From: Climacium dendroides
Lineage: Eukaryota > Streptophyta > Bryopsida > Hypnales > Climaciaceae
Length of the DNA: 64,000 bases
Assembly (NCBI GenBank): GCA_950106755.1
Contig: OX467083.1
Coordinates: forward strand, 40,376,555-40,440,554
Direction of reading: 5' to 3'
Shown piece after piece: positions 24,066 through 59,548 of the stretch. The notes under the pieces are model-generated. The model worked only from the letters and a program-made list of their open reading frames with translations, made no database searches and was not told the DNA's origin. The position numbers and the translations under genes are program-made. How positions within the stretch are numbered: position 1 is the first letter of the stretch; every line of letters starts with the position of its first letter.

Positions 24066-25362
24066 TCATTTTGGGGTGGACTTTGCTACATACCCAAAAT
24101 CATGATGTCCCCATAAAACAATTGATTCATCAATAATATCATTTCTATCAATGATGATATTATGGAGTAAACAACATGCTACTATCAAGCTTGGAATCCT
24201 TTTGAAATCAGGATTTGTAATAGGATTTCTTAGAATCCTCCACATTCCTTTAAGGATCCCAAAAGCACGTTCCACTACCATACGTGTAGAGGAATGTTTG
24301 AAGTTGTATTCCTCATATAATTTTGGAAGTTGGATTCCAGGCCAAGGCACCAACAAATTTTTATCTCCAACATACTCTGCATCATCTACAATGAGTTCAC
24401 AAACATCAACTCCTTGAATCTCGATTGTTGACCCATTCAATCGAGTTCCTGCAACCACTTCTTTAAAGTGATTTGACATCAATAGAATTCGAGAATCGTG
24501 TACAGATCCGGGAACCCCAACAAAAACATCTGTAAATCGGGCCTCATGGTCTACAATTGCTTGCATTACTGTAGAGTAGTTATGATCATGATCATACCAA
24601 TCATTGGATCTGGTATTTGCTGGTAAGTCAAATTGGACATGAGAGCAATCGATAGCATTACAACATTGTGGAATGCCATGTAGGTTTTTAAAACCAAGTT
24701 TCACCTAAGATAATCTTTCTCCTGTTGGCCAATTTAAATGCAAAGCCAATGCCACCTTTATCAGAGCAGCAATGAACCGTTGATAAACTACCACACTTGT
24801 TGAATTGGCTATGCCAAAAAGTTCACTAATTGAAGCATGAGTATCTCCAGTCCCTAGTCTTTGTAATGCAATAGCAACTTGTTTGGGAACATCCATCAAT
24901 CTTCCAGTGATATTGATCAAACCCAATGGTGGATTATGATGCAATTCATCATGAATCAAACTGCAGAGATAATGAAAAGTTGGCACCGATAAATGGAAAA
25001 ATTGACGAAATCGTTCTGGATCATCACGCATCACGAGAGTTGAGTATTGATCCCACCAATGAATTGAACGTGACTTGATGTAGTGTAGACCATATTTTGA
25101 TCCAAATATTTTTTTTTGCCATGTTTTTCAACAAAAACTTACTGAAATAATGCATTGCATTGCATTCCATAATTGAATGCAAAATTAACAATTCTTCTCC
25201 TTCTATCTTTTTCCACTTCAAATGCCTCACACTTGGTACTCTTGGAGTTGTTCTTTGACTCCTTTCAAACATCCCTTGGCTAGCTAGTTGTACCATTGTC
25301 CCAATTGATGCATTTGCAACCCCCACCATTGCAAGTGCTACTCCAACGTCTAATTCATCCAT
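24066..25362 (-). pseudogene. PIF/Harbinger transposase
   Basis: Minus strand. The N-terminal part from 25,362 runs to a helix-turn-helix-like region (PKQVAIALQRLGTGDTHASI, about 24,840-24,900). The DDE nuclease follows: first Asp in CCNAIDCSHVQFD (about 24,640), second in FVGVPGSVHDSRIL (about 24,500) and the Glu in RMVVERAFGILKGMWRIL (about 24,270). This pattern is specific to the plant HARBI1/PIF family. A TAG at 24,705-24,707 lies inside the frame. A frameshift near 25,030-25,110, possibly in the A-run at 25,110, separates the N-terminal piece. The gene next door encodes the usual Myb-like partner, transcribed the same way. Confidence 0.88.
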
Positions 25363-25780
25363 ATTTCACAAGCTTCACATAAACAAATACAAATCAAATT
25401 AGTCATATACTCAAATCATGCATTTGTATATAGTAATAACACTAAATGTTTCATAATCAAATCATGGCATATATGATGAAACAAATGTTGAACTAGAAAT
25501 CAAAAGTGGATTTCAACATCCACCAAAAAATTAGTAAAAAGAAAAAACCAAAAGAAAAAATAGTCAACTATGCCAAAATATGAAAAATGCACATACTGAG
25601 TTAGAATGCTTATTTGTTTAAAAAAAATAAAAATGTATCATAGTAAAATGTAATAAACCTTGTATATTAATATGTGTATAAGAATAACCAAATAGATATT
25701 AAATACATATATGAATTTCAAAAAATATACGTAAGTGAATATTTTAGATTGTAAAGTCATACATGAAGTAGTGAGTTAAT

Positions 25781-26777
25781 CTACCGCCTATTTGAAAGTG
25801 CATTGCCAATTGTTTTCATGGCATCACTTAAGCTCAACAAGGCATCCACATAAGCCTTGCCAATGTTACTAGCACTCTCCAATCGCTCACGTTCAAGCCT
25901 CATCAAATCAGAGTGGCGTGCTTCTTTTGGCTGTAACTTTTGTCTGTCCAATTCTATAATTTTCCTATGGCGTATATCCTCACGATTATGCCCTGAACTT
26001 ATTGCTTCTACAAACTCAAGTCTGGTTTTATCCATTGATGCCAATGCACCATCTGTAGCCTTTATGGATAAACGTCGTTTCTTTGTAGAATAATTCATGG
26101 ATGATTCACCATTCTCTGCAATATAGAAAGATATATTAAAAAAAATTCAATGCAATAGTAAAGTGCATAGAAATAATCAAAATATGATGATAAAAACGTG
26201 AAGAAGTGAAAAAAGTACCAGTAGATGGAGACATGGTACTAGTATCAAGTGGAAGGTCTCTCGGATCCACAACATTGGAGATACCTGGGTACCATTCCAA
26301 CAAAGCAAGGTACACAACCTCATCCAATGGAGCTCGTGGAAACCTCCTCACATGATTTTTCTTCTCCAATGGGCTCATTGCAAAATAACTTTTCTGACCC
26401 GAGGGAATTTTTTTCTCATAATCATAAACTTTTTTGAAGTCTGGAGAGAGCTGCTCCCATTTGTCTTGGATTTGTTGTTCATTGCGATGAACACCTTTCT
26501 CCCATAAATCATCAGCCATGGCCATCCATCTTTTTAGTGTTGTGGTCATTTGAAGGCGTTGACTTTTTGTAGGTCCATATTTCTCGAAGTCCAATCTCTT
26601 AGCATGACACAAATTTAAAGTATGTGCTAAAGACCATCTCCCAGATGTGTACACTCTACCATCTACTCCTCCTTGGGGCACTCCCAATTCCACATGAATG
26701 TCATCTTGTGATTGATCCTCAAGATGTATGGACTCAGGGTTCCAATTGAGATCAATAGGAGTTCTCTGTGACCCCAT
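25781..26777 (-). CDS. Harbinger-associated SANT/trihelix-like protein
   Basis: Two exons on the minus strand. Exon 1 runs from ATG at 26,777 to about 26,218 (donor CTACTG|GTACTT); exon 2 from about 26,115 (acceptor ATTGCAG|AGAATG) to the stop at 25,781. Exon 1 holds a three-helix Myb/SANT-like DNA-binding domain with Trp landmarks (RWSLAHTLNLCHAKRLDF, LKRWMAMADDLW, IQDKWEQLSPDFKKVY). Exon 2 is a charged helical tail resembling the NAM-associated C-terminal region. PIF/Harbinger elements need such a second protein for DNA binding and nuclear import of the transposase. The frame is open throughout, in contrast with the transposase. Around 290 residues is normal for this partner. Confidence 0.75.
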
Positions 26778-28250
26778 TTTCTATAGAAAAAATAATTAAT
26801 GTATGTTGATAAGAAGAAACAATGAAAGTTGTTTCATAATATCAAATTAGAATTATATCTTTAAAACTTAAGCATAATTTGTTGTACTCAAAATGAGATT
26901 CAAAGTAATTTTAAATAAAATGAAAGAAGCATTTCATTGTTGCTTATTTATAATATAATGTTTTCTTATTTTTATTTTGAAACAAATTAAATAGAATTTG
27001 ATTGCAAAGGAAATAACATTAAGGTAAGAGGTTCTAAATCACACACCTCCTCAAATGTACACTATGTATACATATTGCTTTTCTGTAGCCTTTAGCAATG
27101 TACAAACAATGTATATTTGAGGTGGTGGGCGATTTTAGAGCCCTATGCCATTTCATCTTCAAAATTTCATAACTAATTCTACAGAGCTCCAAAAAATATA
27201 GAACAATTTGGGTTAAATGCCACTTCCATTTATCTTTGAAGGAAAATTTACTACATTTAAAAAAATGTTTAACTTTCCAAAAATTTAGTTTCAACTCTTA
27301 ATGGGCAATTTTTGGACCTATTATTATACAAGCTTGGCAAAGAAGGATTAAAATTTGGATGATAGGGACACATAACAGAACAAGGAGAGTATATTATTCT
27401 AATTGTATTGAAATAGCTAAAAAGAAAAAAAAAATACCAAATCAAGAACAAAAAATGAATTGTTGTCACTTACAAAATAGCAACACACTGAACCACCCAC
27501 CCAACAACAAAACAACCCATTCACTAATTTTATATCTAGCTATAAAACACAAAGCAAGAACAAGAATTGAACCACACTAAACCACCCACCCAACAACAAA
27601 CAACCCATCTAGCCATAAAACACAAACCAACAACAAATGTCCCTCACAACAAGTACATAGGTTCAAGTCTTTAAAAATTTCTACTTCAGTGTGGGTACGG
27701 TAGAAAGCAAAACAAAAATTAAATGTTTCCACCATGCCATTCAAAACTAAATTACATTAGAAGAGTCAATGAGAATGAAGTACCTAAGATATAATTGCTC
27801 CAACAAAACACTCCAAGAAAAAACGCTCCAACAAAACTCCAAAACAATTGCTTGAAGTCTGGCGCTCCGGCCAGCACAAACGTTTCAACCTACGGAAGCC
27901 AAAAAGACACGTAAATTTCCAATTAGCGCATCTAATAGTTGCCACTGACTTGCTACTGTAAGTTAACCGCCTAAAGTAACCGCTTATAGCAAGTAGAAAA
28001 TATTGAGAAGCCAATGAAATGAGTTCACCGATATCGGTTGAAGCTCCGAATATTCTGTGACGGCCGCTGATTTTGCCGATGAAGCGGTGGAAGTCCCTTA
28101 CCGAGAGGTGCGCTAGGGCTACCTCATATGCTCATCGGTGGGCCAAATTTTTGGATTGTTCTGTGGATATTACCCACTGGGTGAGCATGTGAGCGGCCCC
28201 TTAGTATGTGTCTCAAAAAGGTACCTATAGTGTATGATGAGAAGCCTAAA
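26778..28250. other. non-coding, probable 5' part of Harbinger element
   Basis: AT-rich to about 27,800 and GC-richer to 28,210. No ORF is convincing. It contains a short direct duplication (annotated below) and GTGAGCATGTGAGC at about 28,181, a word also found in the termini of the Mutator-like family further right. Confidence 0.4.
27491..27640. repeat. 88-bp direct duplication
   Basis: ACCACCCACCCAACAACAAA begins at 27,492 and again at 27,580, each followed by AACAACCCAT and a CTAG(C)-ATAAAACACAAA stretch. It is a simple two-copy tandem duplication. Confidence 0.6.
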
Positions 28251-35082: not shown

Positions 35083-35289
35083 GGGGATTGCTATTATGTG
35101 AGCCTAGAGCGGTGAGCAAAAACAAATGAGTAATTTTGAAATATTTTTTCTGTGAAAAATGAATATACCAGTGCCTATGACCGTGAATTTTGACACATTC
35201 TTTAAGATGAAACCTATAACCGTGGGATGACCATTAGGGAATTTGTAGATCATTTTTATCCATCTCAGCCATTGGACTATGTTGAATCC
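35083..35289. mobile_element. left end of Mutator-like copy A
   Basis: The tip GGGGATTGCTATTATGTGAGC is followed by GCCTAGAGCGGTGAGC and, about 90 bases in, CCTATGACCGTGAATTT. The same three blocks occur at both ends of copy B and at the start of copy C. A short open frame starts at 35,227 (MTIREFVDHFYPSQPLDY) and, when copy B and one target duplication are removed, continues for about 22 more codons from 47,342. Copy A therefore appears to extend across copy B to the methyltransferase gene at 47.6-50.7 kb. Confidence 0.6.
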
Positions 35290-36219
35290 GGGGATGCTAG
35301 TTTGTGAGCTTGTGAGTGTGAGCCTATGAGCCTCCATTTTTTTATCCATTTAGGATTCCTAAATCTGTTCAGGTCCTATGACCATGGATTTAAATGCAAG
35401 GATCTATAGTCCAAATAAACAACAAATGAATTTGTTCCTATTTGATTTTGTCCCCCCAAAATTGAACCAATATATTTTATTAAATTGAAATATTATAAAA
35501 TAGGAAATTTTTGTAAGTAACACATAATGAAAATAGGTCTATATAGTGGTTTAGGATATTTCACTACAAGACATATATGAGAAAAATACAATGCATTGTA
35601 ATACCATTATTTAAAGGGCACATTTATCAAGTAAAAATAGAAGGGGCAATAAACATGGATTGTAGATGTTGAATATAAATTTGATGATAGGCAAAATATT
35701 ACAAGCATTAGATCATAAAAATGGTCTTGAGTTTATGATTAAGTGATAAATGAAGTCTTAATTGTTGGCCTTCATGTAAATTTAAAGAATGAAAATGGTC
35801 CATTTATTTTTTTTAATTTTTTAAAAATGATTTAAAATAAAAATAGAAAATCTTGAATTTTTAATATTTTAAATGTACAAAATATTCATTTATTATACTA
35901 GGTATATGTATTAACCTAGAATGAATTAAACAATTATTTATCTAGTCAATGCCTCTATTTTTGGACTATCTTAATCAAACTTTTTTTTTGAAACAAATCC
36001 AATGCTAATAGTTTAATTTAATTCCAAATTAAAGTGAATTATGTAGAATTTTATAAAGTCCAATGGTGTAGTGTAATTCAAGGCTTGCAATTTATTATTC
36101 AATTTGAGCAGAGAGTGAAGTTTAAGGCCATCAAATGGAATTATTGCCACATCATGCATAGTTAGATTCAAAATAGAATAAAGTAAATAGAAATCAAATA
36201 TAAAAGTATGAAATCAAAC

Positions 36220-39200
36220 TCAAATATCGTGTGACTCAGATGCACTGAGTTCAAAATAAGAACATACTCTAGGATCATAAGATCTATGAGGTGATAGAGA
36301 GATCGAAGATGAATCAGATGAAACATTAGCATAAGCTAATGCTAAATCTTCAGCATAAATAGGTAGGCCACGAGGACTCAGAAAAGGACTTCTAAAAAAT
36401 CCAGAGTGTCGAAAAAAAGGCAAGGTCTGTCTTGGTGATGGACTCATCCAACTGCAAACAATAAACCATATGTTTGAGTATGTAATAACAAATTAAAATT
36501 CAAAGTATTGAATTTTGAATTGCAATTGTTGAAAGAAAAAAAAACAAAAAAACTTACTCACATAAGTCAAGTAACTCGACATCTTCAATTGGAGAGTCGT
36601 CATCAATCTCCATACCATCACCCGTGGTAGTAGAATGAAGAGTCTTGGAGATGATAGTAGGTGTTTGTAATGGCTTCAGTACCTCATCAAAAAGCTTGGC
36701 ATCACTTTCTAATGCTAGAATATGACGATTAGATGAATGAGCTGCTCTGATGGAAGAACCTGTATAAGACACAATATTGACATTATAAGAACATCAAAAT
36801 TGGAAAGTAGAGAAAAAATCAAATCAGAATATACAACAATAATGATTCAATGTTGTAGATTACAATATCTGTAGAGGCAGTTATGTCTGCCACAATACCA
36901 TTTGTAGGGCTTAAGCCATGAACAAAAAGCTTCATGAGAACCTCAGATTTTTCCTTAGCACCCCTCCATGGCTTGCCATCTTCCTTTCTACATGATTGAG
37001 TTGTTGTAATAGTGTTGAAAATGACATCATCTGTGGTTAAATCAACCTCAGGAATTGAGGGATCAATAGAAATTTGAAGCTCTCAAGGTTGCCTAGCAAT
37101 GGTAGAGGCAAATGATCGAATCAATAGCGAAGCCTTGAACTTCAAAGTCTGCAAATCAAAATCAAAATCAAATTAGAATGTACACTTAAAATGAAAATAA
37201 CTGCAATAACAAGTGAATCAAAATAAAAAGTGAAAGATTGAAATTACTACTTACAAATTTGGATGGGTTCATGGGATTTGCCAAATGTAAGCAATTTATG
37301 ATAGTCCACTCATCTTTGATCTTCAACTTGTAGTTCTTGAAGAATCCGGACACTTCTCTCTTCACCATAGAAGTATCAGGATAAAATAGAATAAATGCTC
37401 CATCATCATGAAGATAGGTGAGAGAGAATGCCATCATTACATGGAGAAAACTTGGAATGCTAGCATTCCAATGAGGGATTTTAGATGATGGATTTGAAAC
37501 CCCTGGAACTGGAAGACCATCTGGATACTCTGCAATGATGAGGTCCACAGCTGGTCTCTTTTGAATTTTGCCATCAAAAAAGAACTCTCTACCTTCAACG
37601 ACCTACAAAGATAAATTTCAAAAATGTCAATTCATAACAGAAGATGTCAAAGTCATAAAAGAACAAAATGAGAAGATGTAAATTGGGTAGAATATGTATG
37701 ATTTCATAATAATAAAAATGAGATGAAAAGAAAAAAAAAAATGAACTGACCTTTGAGAGAAAAGCCATAATGTTGTCATATGATGTATCAAATGTATTAT
37801 TTTTCTTCTTCTTTTCAACGATTAAGAGATGTAGGATTGGTAGACAAAGGAGCCAATGTACTCATCATACCTTTAAGCTTGGGAGCTAGCTCAAAGGTAG
37901 GAGAGGAGGTTGGTGCCAAAACAACAGAAGTAGAAGATGTCTTCTGGCGCTTTGAAGCAGGGAGTTTTGCTTCAACATCGAAAGAAGAAAGTATAGTAAC
38001 AACAAGATTCTTCAAAGTATCTTGAACTGGTACATCTTCATTGGAATCATCAAGTTCAACCACCAACTTCTTAGACTTGGTCTTCTTGGCTGCATCCTTA
38101 CTGACGTTCTTGAGAACATCTATAGCTGTACCTTTGAAGGCAGGTTCAATAGAATCTCGGAGGACAACATCAAAAGTTGGTGGTCTTTTGAGGGGACAAT
38201 CCAAATACCACCCACATTTTTCCCAATGCATGTAATCCCAAGATTCCATAATCCCCTCTGTGAACATGCACTCTTCACTTTCTTTATCCAAATAATTGGC
38301 AAAGAAAGTGGGAGTTTTAGAAATGGCTTTGGCAGGGAAGAGAACATACTTAAAGTATCTATAAAGCACCCTTTGCATGGCTGATTTGAAGTTGAGTTGC
38401 TTGTCTATCTTGTTGTTCTTGTAAACCCCCTTATCGACAACAAATTCACAGAAGAATGCAATATCCCACAACAATATGCGCATAGTCTCTACATAATCAA
38501 AAATAGTAGGCAAGGGATCCATACCATTGGGAAGATAGTCAATAGATATGTCCAAATCTGCCACTGTAGCATTGAAGAGTTTTTCTGTCTCAATAGCCAA
38601 CTGCCATGCACATAAATTGTAAATTAGAAAGAATGTTTTGAATTTTTGATTGATCCAAAAGGTTCAAGGAATTAATACTAAAACAATAGGAAAGAAAGAT
38701 AAGTACTCACTTGAGCCCACCACGTAGCTTTATGAAGCCACTCAGGGAATTCGAGATCACTGAATTTCGGTTTAGGAAATTTGAGAGCCTCACGAAGAGA
38801 AGGAGACTTATTCCATCTCTCAAGCCACTTGATCTTCATAGAAGTATCCATCACTGAAGTTGCCAACATCCAAAGTTTTTTTTGGGTCATCTCCGGATTG
38901 TCATCATGAGTTTCATAGTGAAACTTTATCTACTCCAAAAATGTGCTCGTATGCTTTGGATCTGCAATAGGAAGTTGCTTCTTCAATTCTGAATGAGAAG
39001 CTACCTTGACCTTCTCAACAACTTTTGAAACCCACTCAGAAACTGCACTTGAAGTCCAATCCACTGGATTGGAATACTTCTCATAGAATTTTCTTTGAGC
39101 AGCAACAACAGCATCCCCCAATTCTTGCTGCAAAAAGTGAAGAATATGTAAGAATAAACATAAATGCAAATGATAACAAATGTTTTGAATATTAGAGGAA

Positions 39201-42200
39201 GAGATATGAAATGCAATTTTTAAAAAAGCTAATGTCAAGAAACCTAAACATTCAAAGAAATTTGAAAACTAGAAAAGAAAATGAAGAAATGAACCTGGTA
39301 TAAGACTCCATTTAGAGCCTCAAGAGTTAAAGTGAACCAAGTTCTTTGTTTCGATTTTTGCTTGGCTTCAGTTGCAAGAAGATCCTCCTTAGAAACAAGT
39401 TTTTCAAAATACGAGAGTGGCTGTCCGGCAATATTTTGAATGCGATAGAGCTTGTGAACAAGAGTTATGGAGACATGGGACTTCTGATTTCTCCTGCCAA
39501 AATAAAATTTATTATATTAGAACATATAAAAAAAACTTTGAAATAAAAGAATGCAGAATAGCAGTATAGATAATGATTCAACTGAAACAAAGTTGGAAAA
39601 CAAAAGAAATGAATAAAATAGAAAGGGATCAAGAAATATAATGGTTTACCAATTGACTTCATGTAATGCTGTCAGCATAGTTGCAACATCCCCTTTGACC
39701 TTCAAAATGATACTTTCAACAGTACAATGCCATTGAAAGTCGTCCGCATGATCTCGGTTGATAAGAGGCATCCATGCTTGTAAACGATGGTTGCCATCCC
39801 ATCCCATAAACATCTTGCCCGAAAAAACTTTGAGATCCTCATCATTTTGCAATTCTCTCTCAAATGCAGCATTTGCTCTCACCCAGTTTGGACTTCATGT
39901 TTTGATGATTTCATCCGTAACATCTATTGTCTTCCCCTCATTGTTCTCCAAAGCAACATAGAAAACTCCATTTCCTTCCATGTAACCACAAGTAACAAAG
40001 TGTGCAGCTGAATTCATGATATCATTCTTCAAGAAAGGCCTCACCACCGGTAGAGATATCATACGACATAAAGGAATATTGATTTTCGATTTAGCTCGTG
40101 GTTGATACCTCAACCGCTCAAGACGAGAAGAAGTATTCATAATCTCTTTCTTCAAGAATCCATGCAACTGTAACTCAAGTTCATCTTGAGAAAGAGGTTG
40201 AAGTGTGGCATCAGCTTCTTGTGCTTGTGGATCTCTTTCTGTCAACAATGTTAAGAACAATGTGCACATGACGATTAGAACAAGTTTTAGTCTACATGTA
40301 TGTACAATAATATATATCATTTTGTATAGAAATCATTAATGAATGTGGTCTAAGGAGGCCTAAAAATTTCAGCATAAAATAAGCAATGTAGCATACATTA
40401 GGAAGAAAATCAAAGTCTCGAAAAGCATGGCCGTCAACGGCTGGGGTCTATCAAGCCCTGAAAAATTTCAAAAATTGGCTATTGTTGAGCAATGTAGCAT
40501 ACATTGGGAAAAAAAATAGAAGTCTCTAAAAGCATGGCCGTCAACGGCTAAGGTCTATCAAGTCTTGAAAAATTTCAGCATTTGGCAAATGTTGAGTAAT
40601 GTAGCATACATTGGGAAAAGAATAAAAGTCTCTAAAAGCATGGCCGTCAACGGCTGGGGTCTATGAAGTCTTGAAAAATTTCAGCATTTGGCAATTATTG
40701 AAATAGATAGCATATATTGGGAAAAAAATTGAAGTCTTTAAAAGCATGGCCGTCAACGGCTGGGGTCTATGAAGTCCTGAAAATTTTCAGAATTTTCCAA
40801 TTCGGCAAGTATTGAGCAATGTAGCATATATAGACATGAAATTTATGTCTCTGGAAGCATGGCCGTTAACGGCTGGGGTCTAAAGTCACAAAGATTTCAG
40901 CATCTGATGAAATCCTTAATGTTCTATAGAAGCCAAAAATTGTAGCATTTGCCTAAATTCCTAATGTTTCGTAGAAGCAAATGTATATCTCAAAACTATA
41001 GCCATCAACAGCTGGGGTGTAAGAAGGCTCAAGAAATTGTAGTGCTCTACAAAATTGGAACACCCTAATTCTTAAATTTGAGTTCAGAAAAGCGTAGCCG
41101 TTAACAGTTGGGGTTTAAGAAGGCTTAAAAAATTATAGTACTCTACAAAATCGTAGCATCCTAATTCCTAAATTACAGTTCAGAAAAGCGGAGCCGTTAA
41201 CGGCTGGGGTTTAAGAAGGCTCAAAAAATTGTAGGACTCTACGAAATTGTAGCATCCTAAACCCTAAACTGGAATTCAGAAAAGCGTGACCGTCAATGGC
41301 TATCCATTGGAGAGACAAACATGAAGGCAATTCCAAGCAATTTTGAAAACAAAATAGAATTGGAAAAAGCGTAGCCGTCAACGGCTGGGGTCTGGAGAAG
41401 CGGAAAAAAATGAGCCACGCACCTGGATTTGACTCACTCGGCACACTTGTTGTCCCTTCTTTTTCTTGAATCATCGTTTCTCCACGCTCAAATCGTCACG
41501 ATGATTTCGTCGTAGCCTCCTCTATAGCCTCTCCTTCGTCTATAGGGAAAGCTTTTTCTTCCTCCGATACCTTCAAAAGTTGAAAGACAATGTGCGAAGA
41601 AACCACAAGGTTTAGGTTGAAGCAAGTCTCAAAAAAAAAAAAAAAAAAAAAAGTATAAAATTGGTAGATGTACCTCAAAGGAATCTTCTAAATAACTTAT
41701 TCAATTTTCAAGATTTTAAGCCAAAAAATTTTGTACTCATAGATTTTACGGGTCAGATTTCCCCTAATTTTTTTCAAATTTTTGGACACTCGAGCAATTT
41801 TACAAAAATCGCCAAAAACTGCTGAAAATCAAAAGGCTGGATTTGGCCCAAAAATCTGCGGTTTCTAAAGATTTCAGGCAAGATTCCAAGATGCTGTTTT
41901 AGTTTTTAAGCCGTAAAAAACTCAATATGCATCCGTTTTTTATGTGCTATATACCATTGGAATCGTGCTTCCCACACGCACAAAATCATATAAAGTTTCT
42001 ACAAATGTGTCTCAAAAAAAATTTCACATACTTTCTAATTTACCATTGCTTGAAGAAATTATTTACATACCTCTATGTTTGTACCTTCAAGTTCTATCTC
42101 CAACTCCAATGTTCGTAGTGCTAATTGTTGATGCTTTTGTTGATGTTCTTCCTCTTCTTCTATGTCTTCATCTACTTCATCTTCTTCTTCTTCGTCAGTG

Positions 42201-42493
42201 TGTTCATTACAATCGCTATAGATAGAAGCTATCTCTGGTTGACCTTCACACAAAATACGCCCAACCTCTACAATATCCTCTTCTATTACTTCACATGGAA
42301 CTATATCTCCATATGTTAAATTCCTCATTGAGCTTGACAAATCACCTGCACTAATTCGAGACAACCGTCTAATCATTCTAGCCCTTAACAATTGCCTTCT
42401 ACTTGAATAATGAAAGCTACTTTTCTTCCTCTTCTTCCTGTGTATAACTAGAGTGTCAACCACTAACGATGGTGAAAGCAAATCCTCTTGCAT
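36220..42493 (-). pseudogene. ParB-like / beta-class DNA methyltransferase fusion, copy B
   Basis: Multi-exon minus-strand gene. Exon 1 (42,493-42,071, donor ATAGAG|GTATGT) is basic then acidic. After a repeat-filled intron, the exon from about 40,243 (acceptor TTGACAG) to 39,650 carries a ParB-like domain with WDGNHRLQAW (39,784-39,801). Helical exons follow at about 39,490-39,296, 39,128-38,711 and 38,600-37,745. The methyltransferase exon (about 37,600-37,262) has DLIIAEYPDGLP in the motif IV position and the strand YLHDDGAFILFYPD. The next exons give KPWRGAKEKSE, then GIVADITAST and SSIRAAHSSNRHILALESD, matching motif I of permuted (motif IV before motif I) beta-class DNA methyltransferases. 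In-frame stops lie at 39,895 (TGA), 38,930 (TAG) and 37,083 (TGA), with a frameshift near 37,820; a donor near 36,878 reads AT rather than GT. Predicted role: recognise and methylate element DNA. This is inference. Confidence 0.75.
40380..41400. repeat. intronic tandem repeat with GCCGTTAACGGC palindrome
   Basis: About ten units of 85-112 bp lie in an intron of the methyltransferase gene. The conserved core AAAGCATGGCCGTCAACGGC is followed by TGGGGTCTA. Cores start near 40,425, 40,532, 40,638, 40,745, 40,857, 41,092, 41,188, 41,284 and 41,369, plus a diverged one near 40,997. Two units carry the perfect palindrome GCCGTTAACGGC. The core is far better kept than the AT-rich spacer between cores, suggesting protein-binding sites. 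Confidence 0.85.
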
Positions 42494-43169
42494 TTGAAAT
42501 AATCAACTATCAAGGCATTACAATATCAACGTCTGCCATACTACATCACACCCTCTTTAAAACTTACATTTCTATCTACTACTTCTTCATGTCCTTCAAC
42601 CTTCCATATTCTATAAGACAACCCTAATTCCTCTTTATAAGGATATATTTTCATTTCATGATTAAATAACGGCTAGTTTTTTTTCCTATTCATATTGTCA
42701 TCAACCACTATTTTTTTAATCTTGTCAGACTATCACTAGATATATAATTATAATTGTAAATATGTCGTACGTCATCATCAACTATTATGCTTGACAGCTT
42801 ATCTTCTATTGTCAGTGACAGTTGTAACACTGTCAACTTGGTCTAATACATATTGATATCCTTCATACTATAATCCATTTATTATTGGTGATGCGTTAAT
42901 TGATGCCATATAGTACGCCGTCTTCCCCAACTTCATTACACCTACTATTAATATACCTTCTTCTATATCAAATCTCCATATAATATTTATTCATGACCAT
43001 TCAAATTATCAATCCAATTTCAAATTCCAGTACATCCATGAAAAAAATTTCATTCATTTTGAACAACCCCTATAATTTTCTCCTTTATATTCACACCTCT
43101 TGCACTTACAAACTTCATTACTTGCTTCTTCAAACTACGTCTTGTCCCCCATTTTCTTAATGCTTCACT
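42494..43169. promoter_or_regulatory. divergent promoter region of copy B
   Basis: The 676 bases between the two head-to-head start codons contain no ORF. A TATA-like box lies on each side: CTTATAAAG on the minus strand (about 42,633-42,641, roughly 140 bases before the methyltransferase ATG) and TTTATATT on the plus strand (about 43,084, roughly 86 bases before the transposase ATG). Start codons were chosen as the first ATG of the open frames facing these boxes. Confidence 0.45.
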
Positions 43170-46100
43170 ATGGCTAGTATTGTTGCTAAAGGTCATGATG
43201 TTTCATTTATTTTACCACTAGATAATCAAGGTTTCGTTCGTGTACTTGCCCATCTCCTTCATGTCCGATTTGGATTCACCCCTTCTTCTATTGTTGTAGA
43301 AGAAGAAGTCCAAGGAGATCACGGCGTTGTTAAGGAGTCTATCTTGCATTCAAGATGTAGTGATCATGAAGGATTCTACTGGCTTCTTCCTGCAGGGCGC
43401 TATAGAGTTTATGGTCTCTTGTCGGAGCTCTTGCCACCTTCAACTGAAATATTGAAACTTACTTTTGATAACTCCAGGGGTGAACACGCATTACCATGTC
43501 CTATAAAAGTGGAGTCTTTAGATAGTAGATGCTCTGAGAATACAATTGTGTTCAATATCAAACGCGAGTCTCTAGAACCTGTAATTGAGTTGTCTAGCGA
43601 TTCTGAAGGCGAGGTGCCACTGAAAGTCTGCCAACCTTCTTCTTCGAATGTTGTTTTTCCATGTATGGTAGATTCATCCATTCCTACTATCTTCCGTAGT
43701 ACACTTAGTAGTCCAACATCATCCGTGTTTTCTCGCCCCCCTCTCCCTCCCAATCAAGGCAATTCCTTAACTGTGTTAGAATGCCTTTGTAAATTGTCTT
43801 CAGTGCCTGGATCACGAAATGAACTTGCCCAAATTGATTTTGATGCCATTGACTATCAGAAGGTTCAGTTCCTCCCATCTAGATTTGATGGGGATGTTCT
43901 TTTCGAGCTGCCACCTTGTCGTGGATCTACATGTGGAGCTAGAGACATGGAAGGTATGGACAAGCGATACGATGGTCATGCATGGTGTCGCACTATGACA
44001 TCAAACATCCATAATGACTTAGGTTTGAAGTTCAGAAAATCGCATTGTATTGGACACTTGATTTGTGAAAATACGAAATGTAACTATCGCACACGAGCTT
44101 TGAAAAGCAATGAAATTGAGTGAATTGGAACCACCAAACATCCATTTAGTGTAGGTCAGATTCCTCCTCCTGACTCTACTGTACTCTGTAAAGTCTGCAG
44201 ACAACCTCCTACTTGTCTTAGTCTATGTAACTCGCGAATTTATTATGTATTCAGAAGTGGAGATTTGTCACGTGCATGCATCCATTTGGGTGTTCATTCA
44301 CATCCAGTTACTGATAGTCAATGTAGAGAGTCTCTTGAAGCAATTACTGAGCTAATTGCTAACGAAGTAGCTAAGACTCCAACAGCCAAAACTTCTGCCA
44401 TCACTTTGGCGGCAAGTAAGAAATTCCTTGACACGTTTCTTATTCACGATGGTCCTGGACCAAAGGAGATGCTTCATGGTGATGCATTAGAGAATGTCAT
44501 GGATAAGTTCAAGCTCCTTAGCTCGCCCAATGTGCACAACATCATTTCCTCTTTTTGGAGCAACAACAAAGGAGGAGGCGAGATTGATCGAATTCTAGAC
44601 ATGAAGGGACGTGCCAAAATGGAGTATATCCACGATAGTGTATTTCCAAGACAAGGACAAGACAAGGTCTATTTATTCAAGATGCTCATGGATGGACCTG
44701 GAAGTGGAGTGGATCTTGTACGACGGATGCAACCAGGCGGCAACCTTGAAAATTGTTTTATCATGTTCGATCATGTCAAGAGAGTGAAATTATGGACGAC
44801 TATTGCTTGCCACGTCTATGATTCTTCTTATTGCAAAGTCATGACCATTGCTATATGTGATATGCAAACTGAGGGCACTGAAGGCCAGATCATTTTTTGG
44901 CGTTGTTTGAATAAGGTCATGATAAAAAATGGAGTGTCGAATCCTAACTTCAAGGGATTTATGTGCGATAGTGCTCAGGCCAACTTTAATGCAGTTCGCA
45001 CTGTGTATGGGTCGGGGGACCCATCTATTCCAATGGTGGACCGTGAAAGGACTTGTTTGTTCCATTGGGCGACAAGCATGCACAAGCACACAGAGAAACT
45101 AATCAGCAAAGAGTTTTAGAAACAACATATCCAACTCTACAGGTAGTATAAGGATGCAACATCAATGTTTGAGGCAGATAAGATGTATCTAGAAATCAAA
45201 GCTTGGTGGTATTCTTCTGGAGCTGCATCAGAACCAGCTATTCGCAAACTCGAGGATTGGTTGGCATTTTGGCACTTTCGCTATCGTCAATGGGGTGCAA
45301 TCATGGATACGGTATGATCTCTATTTTCATTGTTTTTTTTCCTATTTTTAATCCTATATCCTCAATATTTCAAAGACTGACTTCATTTAATATATTTGCA
45401 GAATTTGACAATAGAAGAATTGGCAGATATTCCAACATGCAATTTGGCTGAAACAATGCACAACAAATGGATGCAAACTTCAGGAAAGCGTGGATTTGAT
45501 TTGTTCGTTGCCACGTGTGATGACTGGGTTCAAGCCTTCATGCAAATGACCAACTATAGGACTTATCTTTGTGGGGGCCCTTCTGGAAAAGGCCCCTCTA
45601 AAGAAGATTTGAAATTGAAGAGGGCTATGGCATCTGGAGATGGAAAAAAAATTGCAGATGCACTTAGTGAGATGCCTGGAGCGGAAGACATCTGCACTTG
45701 AATTCCACATTTAGAGGGTGAAGAAATATTTGGATCTAGCAAAAGGAAATTAGATCTTCCAATTGGTTCTGAAGGTGATTCTCATTGCCCTGACAAAGTA
45801 AACTTCTCTCATCCTCGGGTTCAAATCAGATCAGCTGTTGGTAGAGTGCAACTTGGGGCTGTAGTTGTCAAAACTAATACAGTTTTACCCCATACCCAAT
45901 CTGTTGTAGAAACCGATTGTGATACATTAGAATGGCATATAGCGAGAATTTCACACAAGTCAAGGAAACAATGTTATGCCATTTAGAAATACACACAAGC
46001 CAAATGTAAGCTATTGATTGTCAGGCATGGATTATCCACTGTTGCCCCTACTTATAGAGGGCAAAAGCGTGAGTATAAGGGGGCAACAGTTCAAACTGAG

Positions 46101-46784
46101 GATTTTTGGTTTTGTGCTGACCAAATTGCATGATGTGTCATGGGACCTAAGCGTTCCCATGTTCTTACTCGACCTGAGATCCCTGAGATTTGGCCTGTTC
46201 TTATTGGTACCAATCTTACTCGTATCGAAATTATAGAGTTTGAAGAAGCTGGATTTCGCTTGCAATCCAGCATTCCAATGTTACCTCGACGGCTATTCAC
46301 CTCATCAAGGATATTTGAGCCTATGTTGTGGACTCATCCTCAACCGGCACATGCTGAAAGAATTCCTTCTATTCGGAATGGTAAGCAAGTTCGTCAGAGT
46401 AGTAAAGCCCCCACCGAAAATCACCACAATCAATGGGAGAGTGCAAAGAATGTTACAACAAATATCATTGGGGTGAACTTCCTTCCTTACCCTGGACTTG
46501 GTGCTATTATTACACTTTTGTCTGGTACTGAACCTAACCAGAAGGTTTATAATATCACGCTTTCTAATTTTCCATCTTATACTTGTCCCCATTATGGAGG
46601 TATGAATGGAACTTCAATTGGAAAGCGTGGTATGTATATAAATTGCAAACATCTTTATTACATCTTCCATTACTTCTGCAAATTGGATTACAAGATAGAC
46701 ACATTCATCCACGCCCCTACCCTCAGTTTGGATGAAGTTAAGCAAATACTTGTTGCTGCCGGAATCATCAAGACGTGCAATTGA
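43170..46784 (+). pseudogene. Mutator-like transposase with SWIM finger, copy B
   Basis: Two exons: 43,170-45,311 and 45,402-46,784 (donor ACG|GTATGA, acceptor TTTGCAG|AAT, phase 0). The first 300 residues are unlike anything I recognise (MASIVAKGHDVSFILPLDNQ). A zinc-ribbon region follows, with paired Cys (ENTKCNY, LCKVCRQ) and HLGVHSHPV, as in the N-terminal DNA-binding domain of Mutator-like transposases. The DDE core includes HVYDSSYCKVMTIAICDMQT, GFMCDSAQANFNAV (second Asp) and TCLFHWATSMHKHT (C-x2-H insert). The C-terminus holds a SWIM finger, NFPSYTCPHY...NCKHLYYIF, in which the first Cys is replaced by Tyr. In-frame stops: 44,121, 45,117, 45,144, 45,699, 45,984 and 46,131. About 1,170 codons in all. 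Confidence 0.8.
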
Positions 46785-47332
46785 AATTAGTGAACAAGTT
46801 AGTTGATGAGTATTAGCATGATATGAAGTAAATCTATAGTACCAATATATTATCTTTAAAATTTTCATATATTGCAAAGTATTATATTTATATTTCAATA
46901 TGTATTCTTTGTTGCAATGAAAAGATATTTTACTATTTGTAAGATGTAGAATTTTTTTTGATATTTTCATTGCATTTTTCTTTCTGTCAATTTTAGAATT
47001 TCCTTTGGATTAATTATTTGTACTTTCACTTTATAAGCCTACTCTAATACTGACTTTGAAAATGTGATTTAAACCAATAAACCTAGATATAAAATTTGAA
47101 CTTGCAATAGCGCCAATTTTCTAGGCTTTTAAATCCACGGTCATGGGTCTTGTGGCAATAGGTCATATTTTTCTAAAAATAAACTTTGCTAAAAAAAATC
47201 AATCTTTTTAATTTTTTAACTAAAAAAATTAGAAATTATATCATGATTCAAATTTGTAGTCTTCAGGCTCACACAATTCCTGCTCACCGCTCTTAGGCTC
47301 ATGCTCACATGCTCACATGCTAGCGTCGTTGT
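46785..47332. other. right terminal region of copy B
   Basis: Non-coding AT-rich sequence running into the right terminal inverted repeat: subterminal block at about 47,150 (AAATCCACGGTCATGGGTC), then GCTCAC repeats (47,265-47,320) and the tip CTAGCGTCGTTG at 47,320-47,331. Confidence 0.7.
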
Positions 47333-47341
47333 GTTGAATCC
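47333..47341. repeat. target-site duplication of copy B (right copy)
   Basis: GTTGAATCC, identical to 35,281-35,289 on the other side of the 12-kb element. The sequence after it (CTTGTCAGAGATGAAATTG) continues the open frame that precedes the left copy. Confidence 0.75.
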
Positions 47342-47581: not shown

Positions 47582-50500
47582 CTAACTGTAGATGCTAGAG
47601 CTAATGTCTTCGTCTTCAGAACTACCTTCGTTGGCCTCTACATCTACATATTGCATAACACGCCTATCATATGAGCGCTTGGATCGCCGTTTAGGTAGAG
47701 ATGTCGAAGTTGCCATCACCATCGCCGCGTCTGCTGCAAAGCAAGGAAGAAATAGGCTGACTGATGGTGTAAACACCATAGGCATCGATGCAGCAAGAGA
47801 TGAGGGTAATGCTGGAGCTCTGCAAAGTAACTAAAGAATAAGAAACCAAGTTGAGACCATAAAATGTAAGAAATATAACAAATTCATAAGTAAGGGAAGA
47901 ATTTACTCACAAGAAGGAACGCGGTTGAGTTTTAGCTTCTTCTCTACACGATCTCCTATGCCTCGCTGCACAGCTTTCCTCTTCTGAACTATAGAAGCAG
48001 GAATCAAGGTGGGGATGAGGGGTTCCAAAAGAGCCTTGAAGATCTCCGGGTCTTCCTCAAAGGCCAAAATGTACCTGCCAAGAGATTGGCAAGCACGAAT
48101 GGAAGCACCTGTCGTAGAAATTGATTGTTAAAACAAATATGATATGATTCTAAAATGCAAGATTAGATACTGAAAAAATTGTAACAAAAAAAGAATGAAA
48201 GTAAGAAATAACATGTAGAGGCATTCCAATCCAATATAATATCTCCAACTTTGGAGAGAGCCTCAATATAGGACTTCACGAATTCCGGATTCTTCTCCCG
48301 AGGCCCTCGCCATGGAACACTCCCGTGCATGAGTTGTAAGTCAGAACTCACAAAGTTGTAGAAGTAGTCATGGTGTTCAAAATTCTCGCCAATGGAGAAT
48401 CTGGATTGGACATTGCCACTCCGTACGAATAATTGAACCCAAAAACGGGTGCACTGCCAAAAAAAAATGTTCACTAGTATATATAAGAAAATATAAATAT
48501 AAAATATAAAATAAGAAAATGAAAAAAGAATTAAAGAAAAAAATTGAATGGATGATAACTAAAAGAAGAGATAAAGATGACAATTACCGTAGTAGATGGA
48601 TTCCGTGGAGAAGCCAACGGAAGATCATTCATGCCCCACCAATCACACTCCAAGCGGAAGTTGTAAGTCTCCGCACACTCCTCCACGTCGATAAAAACAT
48701 CGCGGTCATTTGGATGGAAAAGGAGAAGTGCTGCATCGTCATGCAGGTAAATCTCTGCAAATTCAAAGATGGTATCAACATACTTCTCCGGTCGAACATT
48801 CCAAGGTGGAATGACTGTACTAGGTACAGAAATCCCAAGCACTGGCAAGTTCTCTGGGATGTCTGCAATGAGCAAATCAATCCCAGTGTGCTTGCATTTG
48901 TCATTAGACACACGACAGGACCTCCTAGCTCCAATCTGGAAAAGAAATTTGAATTAGAAAATAAATTGGAACATCAATGACACAATTAGGAATAAGAAGT
49001 AAAAAAAAATGTAATATCAATGAACTAGAAAAATAGAAGAAGGAAAAAATTGTAGATCAAGGTTTAATAAAAGTACCCAGGAGATGAAGTCATGCAGCTG
49101 GGTCCAAAGCGGAAGAGGACCATTTGGATCTCCTAAAGAATCCATGATGGAATGTACCAAGGCATTCTGAATGAATAACTCAGAAGAGGTAGCAAGAAGT
49201 GGTGCAGAAGACCTAGACACAGTAGGCACGCGTTGTATGCGATTGTGCACTACGTTTCGACTGGTCTCCATGTAACTCCACCCTGCTGCATGTGAGTCCA
49301 TAATAGGGGGAGAGTAACCAGAAACATCAACAGGTACAGAGATATCTGAAGAAGAAGGCAAAGGAACACCGTTGGTAGCAGCCACTTTTGCAAGTGCCTC
49401 TGCCACAGCCCTCTCGACAGCTGCAGCTTGCTCCTCTGCATCTCTAACTAACTTCTCCTTGTTCGCCTTCTCCTTGTCAGCCTTCCTTAAGCGCTTCTTC
49501 TTTGAGGAGGTGCCATCTTCTGTTGCAGCATGAGATGACTGTGAGAGGTCCAAGAATACAACCTCATCCTTAGTATTTGGAACTGGAGGTGGAGATATAG
49601 TGCAAACAATGCTATTGCCGAGCTCCACCTCTTCATCCGGAGTGAAGTTCACAGGGCACTCCAAATACCAACCACCACTATGGAGATGAGCAGTAGAAAA
49701 CTTCTTCAACTGCATGGGCGTGAAGATGCAAAGATCTGAAGATGGCTGAATCCATGCTCCAAAGAATGGAAGGCAATTGTTATCTCCAAGTTCATTTTTA
49801 GGCATGAGCTCTCTCATTACATACCTACAACAAAAAAACAAAAGAAAATGAGAATAGAAGTAAATAATCAGAGAAGAAAGTGAAGCAATTGCAAATGTGA
49901 TACAAAACATAAGAAGTGTATAGTGTATTGAGAATGAGTAAAATTTCCAACAAATGATGAAACAAAACACAAACCTGTAAAGTAGCCGCTTTATAGCAAG
50001 GTCTGCTGATGGGACATTGTCAAGCCTGATACTCTTTAAAAAAGGAGGCTTGATGTTTGGATAGAGGAATGGTAAGAATGCTTTCTCCCACAACATGATA
50101 CGCCACCTCTCAACATAATCTGAAGGCTTTAATAATCCAGGAGAGGCCTCCCAATTCACCAAGAGCTCGCCCCCCCCACAAAGTTCTTCGAAATGCACAA
50201 TAAACATTTCCTTGAGCTACATAGTGACAAAGAAAGAGAAAATTAGATATAGAGTGGCATCAGTAAAAGTAAAGAGCTAAATAGAATGACAACTATGTAT
50301 TTAAATGAAAAGTAGAGGAAGTACCTAAGCCCAGAATGTAGCTCGATTGAGCTAAGTATCCAAGATGCTCTCCTTAACATCACCAACTGGGAAGCGAAAA
50401 GAGGCTTGAAGAATGGAGCCGGAGTTCCACCAGTGGAGCCAGCGCGCCTTGAAGCGTGGTTCAACTGCTGCAGTTGCTACCTTTTGCAACTTCTCAATTG

Positions 50501-50700
50501 TCATTTCAGTCTTCTTGAAGAGGCTGAAATGAGAATTGATCTGTTTATGAAAGAGAACTAGAGTTAATAAAACCCAGATAAAAAAAACCATGAATGCGAT
50601 GAAATTGAAGAAAAGAAAGATATGAGATAATAATGAATTTACCTCATTAAAGAAAGCCTCGCCATTCTTGGGGTTTGCAACTGCGAGATACTTTACAAAG
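47582..50700 (-). pseudogene. ParB-associated beta-class DNA methyltransferase, copy A (5' truncated)
   Basis: A paralogue of the copy B gene with the same exon order. The first surviving exon ends at 50,643 (AVANPKNGEAFFNE|GT) and is cut on its 5' side by the tip of copy C at about 50,700, so the ParB-like domain is lost. Exon 2 (about 50,537-50,324) aligns with copy B but has TAGs at 50,352 and 50,325. Later exons contain WYLECPVNF and a Lys/Ala-rich coiled segment. The methyltransferase exons are better kept than in copy B: DLLIADIPENLP (48,843-48,878), YLHDDAALLLFHPND, SVPWRGPREKNPEFVKSYIE (about 48,270-48,325), VGDIILDWNAST (48,214-48,249) and SIRACQSLGRYILAFEEDPE (about 48,050-48,110). 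The final exon is acidic and ends at 47,582. In ordinary beta-class enzymes motif IV is DPPY/W and motif I is DPFxGSGTT, so both are altered here. Confidence 0.75.
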
Positions 50701-51089
50701 CAATGACGCTAGCATGCGAGCTTGGAGCGGCAAGCTTGTGAGCGGCGAGCGAGGAGCTCGTGAGCAGGGAGCCTGAAAATTAATTATTTTTAAATTAAAA
50801 AAAAATTTAAAAAAAAAATTGGACTTAAAATTTATTTACTTTTTTTAATAAATTATGAGTCCTATGACCGCTTGCTCTATTACTATGCTTTTCACAAAGT
50901 TTTCATTTTCAAGCTAGTAATTTCTTTTATATGGCAAAATTAAAGAATATTACTTCTTTCATGTTTAACCAGTTCCCTTCAATGATTGCATTTGTGATGT
51001 CCATAAACTATAAAAATAATAATCCTACTACAATTGCTTTGCTTTTAGCTCAATACAGGGATTGCACCTTGGCATAATTAGAAGCCTCA

Positions 51090-51700: not shown

Positions 51701-52270
51701 CGTCGCGTCCATCCGTCAGGATGTCCGGACGGACGTCAGGATCCATCCCCGGCGTCCGTCAGGATGAAATCCAAATGACAACCGGCGACAGAGGATGATT
51801 TAGACTACAGAAATGGATGGACGAGCTTCGTCGACGGGCGCTCTAGACGGCTGCGATGGATGGTCGAATGAACGGTCGATGTGGACGGTTGGGCTGGACG
51901 GTCCGGCTGGATGGCCGAGATGGACCGTCGACCTGGACGGTCGATCTGGACTGTCGATCTAGACGGTCTAGCTGAACGGTCGATTTGGACCGTCGATCTA
52001 GACGGTCTGGCTGGATGGTCGATCTGGACGGCCGAGATGGACGGTCGATCTGGACCGTCGATCGAGACGGTTTGGCTGGACGGTCGATTTGGACCGTTGA
52101 TCTAGACGGTCTGGCTGGACGGTCGATTTGGACGGTCTGGATGGATGGTCGATCTGGACCGTCGATCTAAACGGTCTGGCTGGACGGTCGATCTGGACGG
52201 TCGAGATGGACGGTTTGGCTGGACGGTCAAGATGGATGGTCGGGTTGGACGATCGGGATGGACGGGCTTT
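51700..52270. repeat. 13-bp GACGGT minisatellite
   Basis: From about 51,858 to 52,263 there are roughly 31 units of 13 bp, consensus GGACGGTCGATCT, with a 39-bp higher-order pattern of three unit types in part of the array. The preceding 150 bases carry GTCCGGACGGACGTC-like words. Because 3 x 13 is divisible by 3, long meaningless frames appear in it. The same GACGG/CCGTC words recur at 56.3 and 59.3 kb. Confidence 0.9.
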
Positions 52271-53807: not shown

Positions 53808-56012
53808 CTATTCTACTTCTTCAATTACAATGCCTCGTGCTGTGCTGCTTCTCAAAAATCTTTGCAACTCTTGTCTTGATTGCAAAGTCGTCAAAAGCTG
53901 ATGTGCGTCACGATCATATCTGTTGTGTAAATGGGAGAAAATGGCACTCACAAGTGTAGGCTCATGGAAGGTATTGTCTTCAATGTAGTTCATTTCTTCT
54001 TCAAAACTCAATTCACCTTCGAATCCGACAGGCATGCCTTGAGAGTTAAACATTATGCCTTGTGGATGTGGTGCACGCACAAAAATGGAGAGGTCCGGGT
54101 CCCAATGTTCACCAGCAATTTGACCAAAATATAATCGCCGCCTTGGATCACCATCTCCAATTACCCTCTTAATCACCTCTGTCACCGCATCATCATTCTC
54201 CCAGTGTATCTCCGCGACCGTTCTTGCCGGGAGGTGTCGATTGTCGTGGCCCCACTTCCAAAGCCAAGTCATGTCCATCCCCCAATGTGCTCTATTCGTG
54301 GGCCCTGGTAAATTTTCTTCATTGTGCTCGTAATATTCAGGCATGTGGACTTGGAGGCCAAACATTTTGTACAGCCTCGGATGAAATGGAGCCTTGCATT
54401 GTGCACATCTTTTTCGGATGACCATGTGTGGAATGAGGCACATGGGGTGGTATAAATGGCTACATGTACCAAGATGTCATCCACCCTCGGGGCCAAATGG
54501 TTCTTGGCACATAATACATATGGTACCGTCTTGTACAAAATCGGGAACCAAAGGCCACAGTAGTGGCCTAATCCCATCGCGGTTCGTTGGCTCGTATCGA
54601 TAGCACTCCGTGTCGTATTGGAATTCCAAGTCTGAAGAACTATTCCAATCGATGCTTGCATTCTCAAGCTTCACTAGCAAATCATCAGTGAACATTTCTT
54701 CCACTCGAGGCCACGAGGTCAAGCCAAAATAACGTTCGCCGCCATCATTGAACTCCGCAGCCACTCTCTTCACTTCATGCTGCATCTGCTCAACCTCGCT
54801 TAGTGCTAAGCTGCATGTCAACTTCATGTTGCACATTTGAAGCAGCATGCGTTCCTTCTGCGGGTTTTGGACCAACTGCATATTTTGAGCACTTAATGCG
54901 GTCATGGTCTGCTCCAAGCCAGCTTGAGCTGTAGTAAGCACCATCACATCTGCCTCGACTTTGTTAGCGCGAAGTTCCAAAGCCCGCATAGCGTTTGTCA
55001 ATTCTTCAACGTGGGCTTTAGTACTTCCAACCTCTGCTTCAGCTCGCTCCGCACGTGCACGCATAATATCCAACGTAGCACCTCCAACACTTGGAAACAA
55101 GGACCGTGACTGCACCCTAAACTCATTTGCATTGCTGGGGCTTGGTTTGTCTTCGTCTGCACCGTATGTAGTACGTTCGACCACCACATCAAGTGATGGA
55201 ATTTCGTCCGTACTCAACTGCCTTTCACGTGCTACGAGGTCGGCCTCGCGTGCGATGAGTCTTGCATTCTCATCCATAAGGGCCTTTACCCTAGCCCTTT
55301 GCCCTTCCAACTCTGCAGCATGTTGTCGTAATGCGGCTTCCTTTTCTGCTTGCAGCGTTTGGACTAATTGTCGCAAGCGAAGTACTTCATCACCTTCGCC
55401 TTCCATTCCACCAATCACATCTTCATTGGGTAGGTCTTCTTCGGTACCCATGCCACCCTCTACCTCCATCACCTCCATCCCAGGTTGCTCCACTTGCTCT
55501 TCCGGGTTTTCTTGCACATTGGGTACATTGTCCAATGGCACGGCAGGGTTTGGTGGAATGCTGCGAGGTCTATTTGGTGATTGACCATGACGCATCTTGC
55601 CGAGGAAGGTTCTCCAATCCACATCCTTCCCAAGAAAAACTTCCGCATATGCCATTTGGCACAACGAAAGGGTCCCATCTCTTCTGGATCTCAAACCCCA
55701 AATCTCCAATGCCACTTCAATCAATCTCTTCTTGAAGTGCGGATGTCGGCACTGGTCGAAATTTACAACCCCGCATTTCACATTTACCTCGTATCGGTCA
55801 GGTGCCCAATGACGGTTGATGTGGGCCCAATCTACGAACTTCCGACACGTCACTCTTGTCCATGGTGAATCTTCATTCATCCACCCCTCGTTTGCCATAA
55901 TCTTCGGGGCATTGAGTGTGCTCCAATCCAAGGTTGCCCTGTTCCCCCTCTTCTTTTTACTTAGGGGCTCACCTCCATGTCCTGAACCTCGTGCTGCATC
56001 CTCTCCGTCCAT
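53808..56012 (-). pseudogene. RING-finger coiled-coil protein, one stop
   Basis: A single minus-strand frame of about 734 codons from ATG at 56,012 (MDGEDAARGSG; the frame is also open to an ATG at 56,126) to 53,808. The N-terminus has KKKRGNRATLDWST and a conserved-looking globular region (VDWAHINRHWAPDRYEVNVK). An acidic Pro-rich linker follows, then a long coiled coil (roughly residues 230-460, for example EEGDEVLRLRQLVQTLQAEK-type heptads). At about residues 500-545 is a RING-H2-like finger: CIMC, then TCSHLYHPMC, then RCAQC. A lone TGA at 54,477-54,479 sits inside the finger where a Trp would fit. RING fingers usually act as E3 ubiquitin ligases. No introns are seen. A GACGG-rich block lies 270-520 bases upstream. 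It could be a captured or element-encoded gene; I do not recognise the family. Confidence 0.65.
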
Positions 56013-56279
56013 TCTGGATACCTGTCCCAAATTCCTTGTACCTGTAGTCTGTTTGCGGATACACTGACAATTTGCTTTGCCTTTTGTTGCGTAAAGGCAA
56101 CTGAAAAGTGGCAAAACAAATGCCAAATGTATAACACTTCATCTCGAATTACAATGCAAAGCTTTCTGAAGTCAGGACAAAGCAACTCAAAAAAGGAAGC
56201 GATTTCAAATGAGCCAACAAAACATACTTATACCTCCGAATTACCGATCCAATTACGCCCGGTGATTAGTACATAATCA

Positions 56280-59311: not shown

Positions 59312-59548
59312 TCGACGGTCTTTTCGTCCCCTAGACGCCCGTGGATGGGGGACGGAGTCCGTCCTCTTGACGGCATGACCGTCGATCTGGACGATGCGAC
59401 CGTCCACTCGACGGCATGTCCGTCCTGTCGACGGCCTGACCGTCGATGTGGACGGCATGACCGTCCTCTCGACGGCCTGTCCGTCCTGTCGACGGCATGA
59501 CTGTCCATCTGGACGGTCATGCCGTCGAGAGGAAATGGGTATATAAAA
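59312..59548 (+). promoter_or_regulatory. GACGGCATGACCGTC array and TATA box of kinase gene
   Basis: Repeats of GACGGCATGACCGTC, GTCGACGGCCTG and TGGACGG (59,312-59,527) end just before the TATA box TATATAAAA (59,540-59,548). The kinase ATG lies 194 bases downstream of that box. The array is inverted and dispersed rather than strictly tandem, so it may be a cluster of regulator binding sites. Confidence 0.6.

Follow-up and report, generated by a model that had tools for sequence, protein, structure and literature searches.

In a 64,000-nucleotide stretch of the moss Climacium dendroides (contig OX467083.1 of assembly GCA_950106755.1, forward-strand positions 40,376,555 to 40,440,554; hereafter the window), we found a degenerate, dead Mutator-like element (MULE) carrying a multi-exon gene that very probably combines a ParB-fold domain with a beta-class methyltransferase-fold domain. 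The element, which we call element A, occupies 35290-47331 (12,042 bp, ~12.04 kb). A first-pass annotation of the window had described a MULE with a ParB-like and permuted methyltransferase gene and a second copy; that description holds, while its proposal of a working methyltransferase is not supported. It had also placed the element at 36220..42493; the element is indeed bounded by terminal inverted repeats (TIRs), and it is larger than that interval.

The gene and its predicted domains

The gene lies on the minus strand of element A. We placed the exons of this copy (copy A) using reading frame and splice junctions, as follows.

36220..36451, minus strand: last exon
36558..36759, minus strand: exon 9, end of motif I and motif II-like NRHILALESD
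36869..37148, minus strand: exon 8, PWRG..EK block and motif I (DITAST/G); in-frame stop; decayed donor
37255..37602, minus strand: exon 7, motif IV-like IAEYPDGLPVPG and LHDDGA strand
37751..38600, minus strand: exon(s) 5-6, linker region; a frameshift separates the two parts named exons 5 and 6
38711..39127, minus strand: exon 4; in-frame stop
39295..39493, minus strand: exon 3
39650..40236, minus strand: exon 2, ParB/sulfiredoxin (Srx)-fold domain with DGNHRLQAW, the fold taken from relative P0001; in-frame stop
42071..42493, minus strand: uncertain first exon, an acidic open reading frame (ORF)

Most junctions are GT-AG; the exon 8 donor is decayed (CTACAG/AT). The multi-exon gene annotated earlier is present, and its named motifs were located: WDGNHRLQAW at 39772-39801, DLIIAEYP at 37522-37545, PWRGAKEK...DITAST at 36870-36971, and NRHILALESD in exon 9. 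The first exon that we regard as secure is exon 2, because the proposed exon at 42071-42493 joins it imperfectly and clashes, by eye, with the splice phase that relatives suggest. Copy A is a pseudogene: its reading frame is interrupted by stops in exons 2, 4 and 8 and by a frameshift, and one donor site has decayed.

The C-terminal half matched Pfam PF01555, the profile that the first-pass annotation had named as a check, with E values of 7e-4 for copy A and 7e-6 for copy B, the second copy described below. The motifs run IV ... X, I, II, which is the permuted, beta-class order and is collinear with phage methylases in our alignments, and the best Foldseek match of the domain was CcrM. Together, these results bear out the permuted beta-class N6/N4 methyltransferase-like domain that had been annotated. 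Other sequence searches gave weaker matches: the methyltransferase part hit M1.HpyAVI-type enzymes (E 0.084) and CcrM (E 0.11) in the PDB, and NCBIfam searches of the cores returned CcrM for copy B (E 0.044) and nothing for copy A or the ParB exons. When single relatives were scanned against Pfam, P0146 matched PF01555 (E 0.02), and P0202, P0121, P0001 and P0118 gave no match. The best Pfam score falls just below the gathering cut-off (26.6 vs 26.7 bits), as might be expected if the motifs were chance matches in degenerate sequence. Such a misreading is highly improbable, because the two copies and the 240 listed relatives point the same way as the profile, the fold and the phage alignments; it is largely refuted for the methyltransferase fold, though it could still apply to the ParB label.

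The predicted active site appears to be altered across the family. N6/N4 amino-methyltransferases carry the catalytic pattern [DNS]PP[YFW]; this pattern was not found in the family, in which the motif IV DPPY is replaced by [DE]-x-P-[DE]. Among 122 aligned rows, 114 have a letter at the position of the motif IV aromatic and none has kept it (D 72, E 37, N 5), making ordinary base methylation by the family doubtful. This loss and the pseudogene state of both local copies argue against the annotated working adenine- or N4-cytosine methyltransferase. Binding of S-adenosylmethionine (SAM) is plausible because the family appears to retain motif I (D-x-x-A-[GS]-x-G) as well as the acid of motif II. 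In the GxG of motif I, the second glycine is present in 25 of the 26 rows with a letter, and the first position is G in 14, S in 9 (copies A and B have S) and another residue in 3. It could be argued that the protein is nevertheless an active enzyme that marks or shields its own DNA by N6-adenine or N4-cytosine methylation through an unusual [DE]xP[DE] site. The SAM-site motifs, the fold and the beta-class motif order would all suit such an enzyme, and DNA methyltransferases are known from other transposons, Dam-like enzymes from DIRS and Dnmt from retrotransposons of Symbiodinium and charophytes (PMC5890265). We judge self-methylation unlikely in view of the missing aromatic.

The ParB/Srx-fold assignment of exon 2 comes from the predicted structure of its close relative P0001 and from structure comparison. 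In BFVD, the model matched a 479-aa protein of Mycobacterium phage Vincenzo that is, by name, a DNA methylase (E 3.1e-3, probability 1.00). The G-x-x-R box, written as W-x-G-x-x-R-x-x-A, is present in 95 of 120 listed relatives and unmatched in 25; DGNHR occurs in 87. ParBc (PF02195) was not among the Pfam families listed for any of 63 relatives or for copy A, so that the annotated ParB-like domain stands by predicted fold and not by a Pfam match. A PDB sequence search with the ParB part returned unrelated rows only, and a phage tblastn with the domain returned 18 records (best E 3) and no sequence-level match. Weak Pfam matches among the 63 relatives were to DndB (3/63, best E 0.0059), DUF5531 (14/63, best 0.0096) and MC2 (5/63, best 0.0029), and NCBIfam and PADLOC scans of the same proteins gave scattered rows of one or two members each.

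Element boundaries, the second copy and relatives

Element A was delimited by an exact 10-bp target-site duplication (a word that long is common to 11 of 20000 random window pairs) and by paired TIRs. The TIR pair scored 43, compared with 39 for the best of 50 shuffles; none of 5000 random 60-mers was as good (maximum 40). Subterminal CCTATGACCGTGGATTT lies 85 bp in from the left end and again ~184 bp in from the right, with one mismatch between the two. MULE target-site duplications are ~8-11 bp long, a range that includes this one, and the degenerate TIRs with a common subterminal motif likewise fit a MULE.

35280..35289, plus strand: left target-site duplication tgttgaatcc, directly outside element A
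35290..35331, plus strand: left TIR region, starting GGGGATGCTAG
35293-35331 with 47289-47327: TIR pair, degenerate inverted repeats, local score 43
35375..35391, plus strand: subterminal motif CCTATGACCATGGATTT, with near-copies at 47147 (minus strand) and 35174
47289..47331, minus strand: right TIR region
47332..47341, plus strand: right target-site duplication tgttgaatcc, directly outside element A

Inside these ends, the minus-strand gene (~40.2-36.2 kb) diverges from a plus-strand transposase-like gene (43161-46784 overall), which is broken by an in-frame stop after 44120.

43161..45119, plus strand: transposase-like ORFs interrupted by one in-frame stop; by eye, a zinc-finger-like N-terminus and D/D and C..H motifs
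45381..46784, plus strand: remainder of the transposase-like gene; SWIM-like C-terminus by eye

Pfam scans of this gene gave no MULE match, and we label it from its anatomy as read by eye. A similar-looking relic in a neighbouring element, E2, matched SWIM PF04434 (Pfam E 0.036), the sole SWIM match.

The second copy mentioned in the first-pass annotation is real. Copy B shares 36-37% protein identity with copy A over the core, and a DNA-level self-comparison (E 1e-10) found no match between the two. It is a pseudogene outside element A that starts at exon 4, where the TIR of E2 (50701) abuts. Identity between the copies at the three codon positions is 0.53, 0.64 and 0.34 over 163 codons, a pattern indicating that the protein was under selection between the two lineages before the copies died.

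47585..50684, minus strand: copy B, exon 4 onward; truncated; stops
35083..35118, plus strand: left TIR-like end of a presumed older element O, outside element A, with the near-copy of the subterminal motif at 35174
50701..50781, plus strand: TIR on the transposase side of a third element, E2; abuts the truncated copy B; equalled by 4 of 5000 random windows

On the simplest reading, copy B appears to be part of element O, an element with the same layout that element A later inserted into. The TIR-like end at 35083 is modest alone (score 35, equalled by 11 of 5000 random windows) and lies ~450 bp from the copy B stop once element A is left out; a right end of element O was not found. Just inside E2, a tandem array of a GACGGTC/GACCGTC unit (51857-52265) sits beside a minus-strand SWIM relic (~51690-51400) and could be E2's own repeat array.

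Exon-level searches recovered a large family. Searching with 151 aa of exon 2 gave 130 proteins, the best 120 of which all had E <= 2e-27, and the A+B core alignment found 154, the best 120 of which all had E <= 1.2e-25. The 240 relatives listed over both searches are mostly single exons from metagenome or assembly contigs, and the moss Ceratodon purpureus (P0050, M758_UG129100) is the only organism named among them. In many of the relatives displayed, the similarity gives way to noise where the gene in the window has its exon borders, as expected of spliced genes. By eye, P0057 and P0125 (both ena) have the same longest-contig figure, 6164, as do P0056 and P0147 (both ena), 7087; this suggests that the ParB and methyltransferase exons of each pair lie on one contig and supports a single gene. 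A third pair, P0023 and P0127 (1244), was discounted as its sources differ. A full-length search with spliced copy A (residues 140-1120) gave 7970 candidates, none at E <= 0.001, probably because the database entries are single exons. No relatives were confirmed in scans of viral_contigs and genome_contigs.

These observations bear on whether the gene could be a passenger, that is, a host gene captured by the MULE (as in a Pack-MULE) that does nothing for the element. MULEs do capture host fragments, and a single insertion with both TIRs and the gene was examined. However, the gene retains introns and is apparently full length, copy B seems to occupy the same place beside a related left end, and divergent relatives are many; we regard capture of this kind as improbable.

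The repeat array, possible roles and other features of the window

A tandem array lies between exon 2 and the doubtful first exon of copy A.

40382..41410: tandem array, units of ~106 and ~96 bp, 10 copies of core GCCGTCAACGGC

Five of the ten cores are exactly GCCGTCAACGGC, both palindrome arms (GCCGTNNACGGC) are present in seven, and three are varied. The core is better kept than its surroundings (~9.3 of 10 vs 6.3). Separately, 59357-59526 holds a second array of CCGTC/GACGG units that resembles the array at 51.9 kb; its surroundings yielded no element end. We considered the CCGTC/GACGG words common to the array of element A, 51857-52265 and 59357-59526 as a common binding site and set this aside, as sharing of 5-mers is expected by chance.

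By analogy, we tentatively propose that the ParB-methyltransferase-like protein was an element-specific DNA-binding regulator or anti-silencing factor. Its binding sites would be the array next to the gene that encodes it and perhaps the TIRs, with contact made by a ParB-type clamp together with the methyltransferase body. Once bound, it might protect the element from host silencing or tune the element's transcription, like VANC at VANDAL tandem repeats. It would probably do so without ordinary N6/N4 base methylation, rather like METTL14, which has lost its catalytic motif and serves as a scaffold. Two points qualify the array evidence: because the copies were picked and aligned by their core, some of its conservation follows from that choice, and 10.8% of shuffled cores also contain a 5-bp palindrome. 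We lowered our confidence in the proposed mechanism slightly for the first of these reasons. In a more specific version, a plant MULE lineage would have acquired a ParB-methyltransferase of phage type, which then became a non-catalytic clamp that is gated by a nucleotide or SAM and loads on palindromic repeat arrays within the element, shielding it from host DNA methylation as an anti-silencing system independent of VANC; as a whole, this scenario is rather unlikely.

Alternatively, the protein may have been a transposition accessory or nicking factor, with the ParB domain nicking or clamping the ends and the methyltransferase fold recognising DNA as a helper of the transposase. MULEs often have a second gene, such as MURB or VANB, which favours such a role, whereas in some MULE systems the transposase alone is sufficient. 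Non-specific nicking activity is reported for the ParB-methylase Bce_0392 of Bacillus cereus (PMC5512222). On balance, we find an accessory role fairly unlikely, and the element-specific regulator or anti-silencing factor is the reading we carry forward.

Elsewhere in the window, the minus strand at 24066-26780 carries a Harbinger-like pair, a DDE_Tnp_4 transposase (E 4.7e-30) and a Myb/SANT-like gene (E 2.2e-9), and hAT-type transposase relics are present at 11300-13414 and 63033-63830 (Dimer_Tnp_hAT E 3.9e-9 and 2.4e-10). An open 511-aa ORF at 59833-61368 contains a partial kinase domain (Pkinase E 2.5e-8) and is perhaps a host gene or a captured kinase; another open ORF, of 553 aa at 54477-56138, had no Pfam match at E <= 0.01.

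Comparison with known systems

Fusions of ParB to DNA methylases are known in bacteria, Bce_0392 of B. cereus being one example (PMC5512222), and the gene of element A resembles such prokaryotic and mobile-element fusions in joining a ParB-fold domain to a methyltransferase-fold domain. It differs from them in being intron-rich and eukaryotic, in its long linker and changed motif IV, and in its place on a DNA transposon. The five phage loci that we fetched encode solo methylases of 684-744 bp without a ParB fusion. DndB of phosphorothioate systems is a further point of comparison, as it belongs to the ParB superfamily and was the Pfam match noted above in a few relatives; that match is weak, DUF5531 and MC2 match as often or better, and the gene of element A has a methyltransferase-fold fusion. 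If intact copies act as the anatomy suggests, plant DNA transposons would have recruited the prokaryotic ParB-methyltransferase pairing with an altered active site, and would offer a eukaryotic ParB-fold DNA clamp for study. Because the catalytic aromatic is missing throughout the family, whether the protein methylates at all can be tested directly.

Transposon-borne DNA methyltransferases have precedents in DIRS, Symbiodinium and charophyte retrotransposons (Dam-type or C5 Dnmt), which element A resembles to that extent, and DNA transposons encoding a DNMT are mentioned in a single sentence for marine viruses (both in PMC5890265). Unlike these Dam-type or C5 enzymes, carried mostly by retrotransposons, the gene described here is on a TIR DNA transposon and joins a permuted beta-class fold to a ParB fold. 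Among the listings from our searches of the open-licence PMC literature, no paper dealt with a MULE bearing a ParB or amino-methyltransferase gene.

In layout, VANDAL elements are similar to element A. Arabidopsis VANC proteins bind short motifs in tandem repeats located in introns of VANB21/VANC21 and upstream of VANA21; the silent marks that they erase are mostly those of their own family (PMC5735166 and PMC10398659). Like VANDAL elements as described there, element A is a MULE with an extra gene, degenerate TIRs and motif-bearing tandem repeats in introns or upstream; the likeness is one of layout and not of proven homology, and the array of element A is known from a single copy. If the proposed role is correct, the family would provide a second test case, besides VANC, for transposons that aim anti-silencing proteins at their own repeats.
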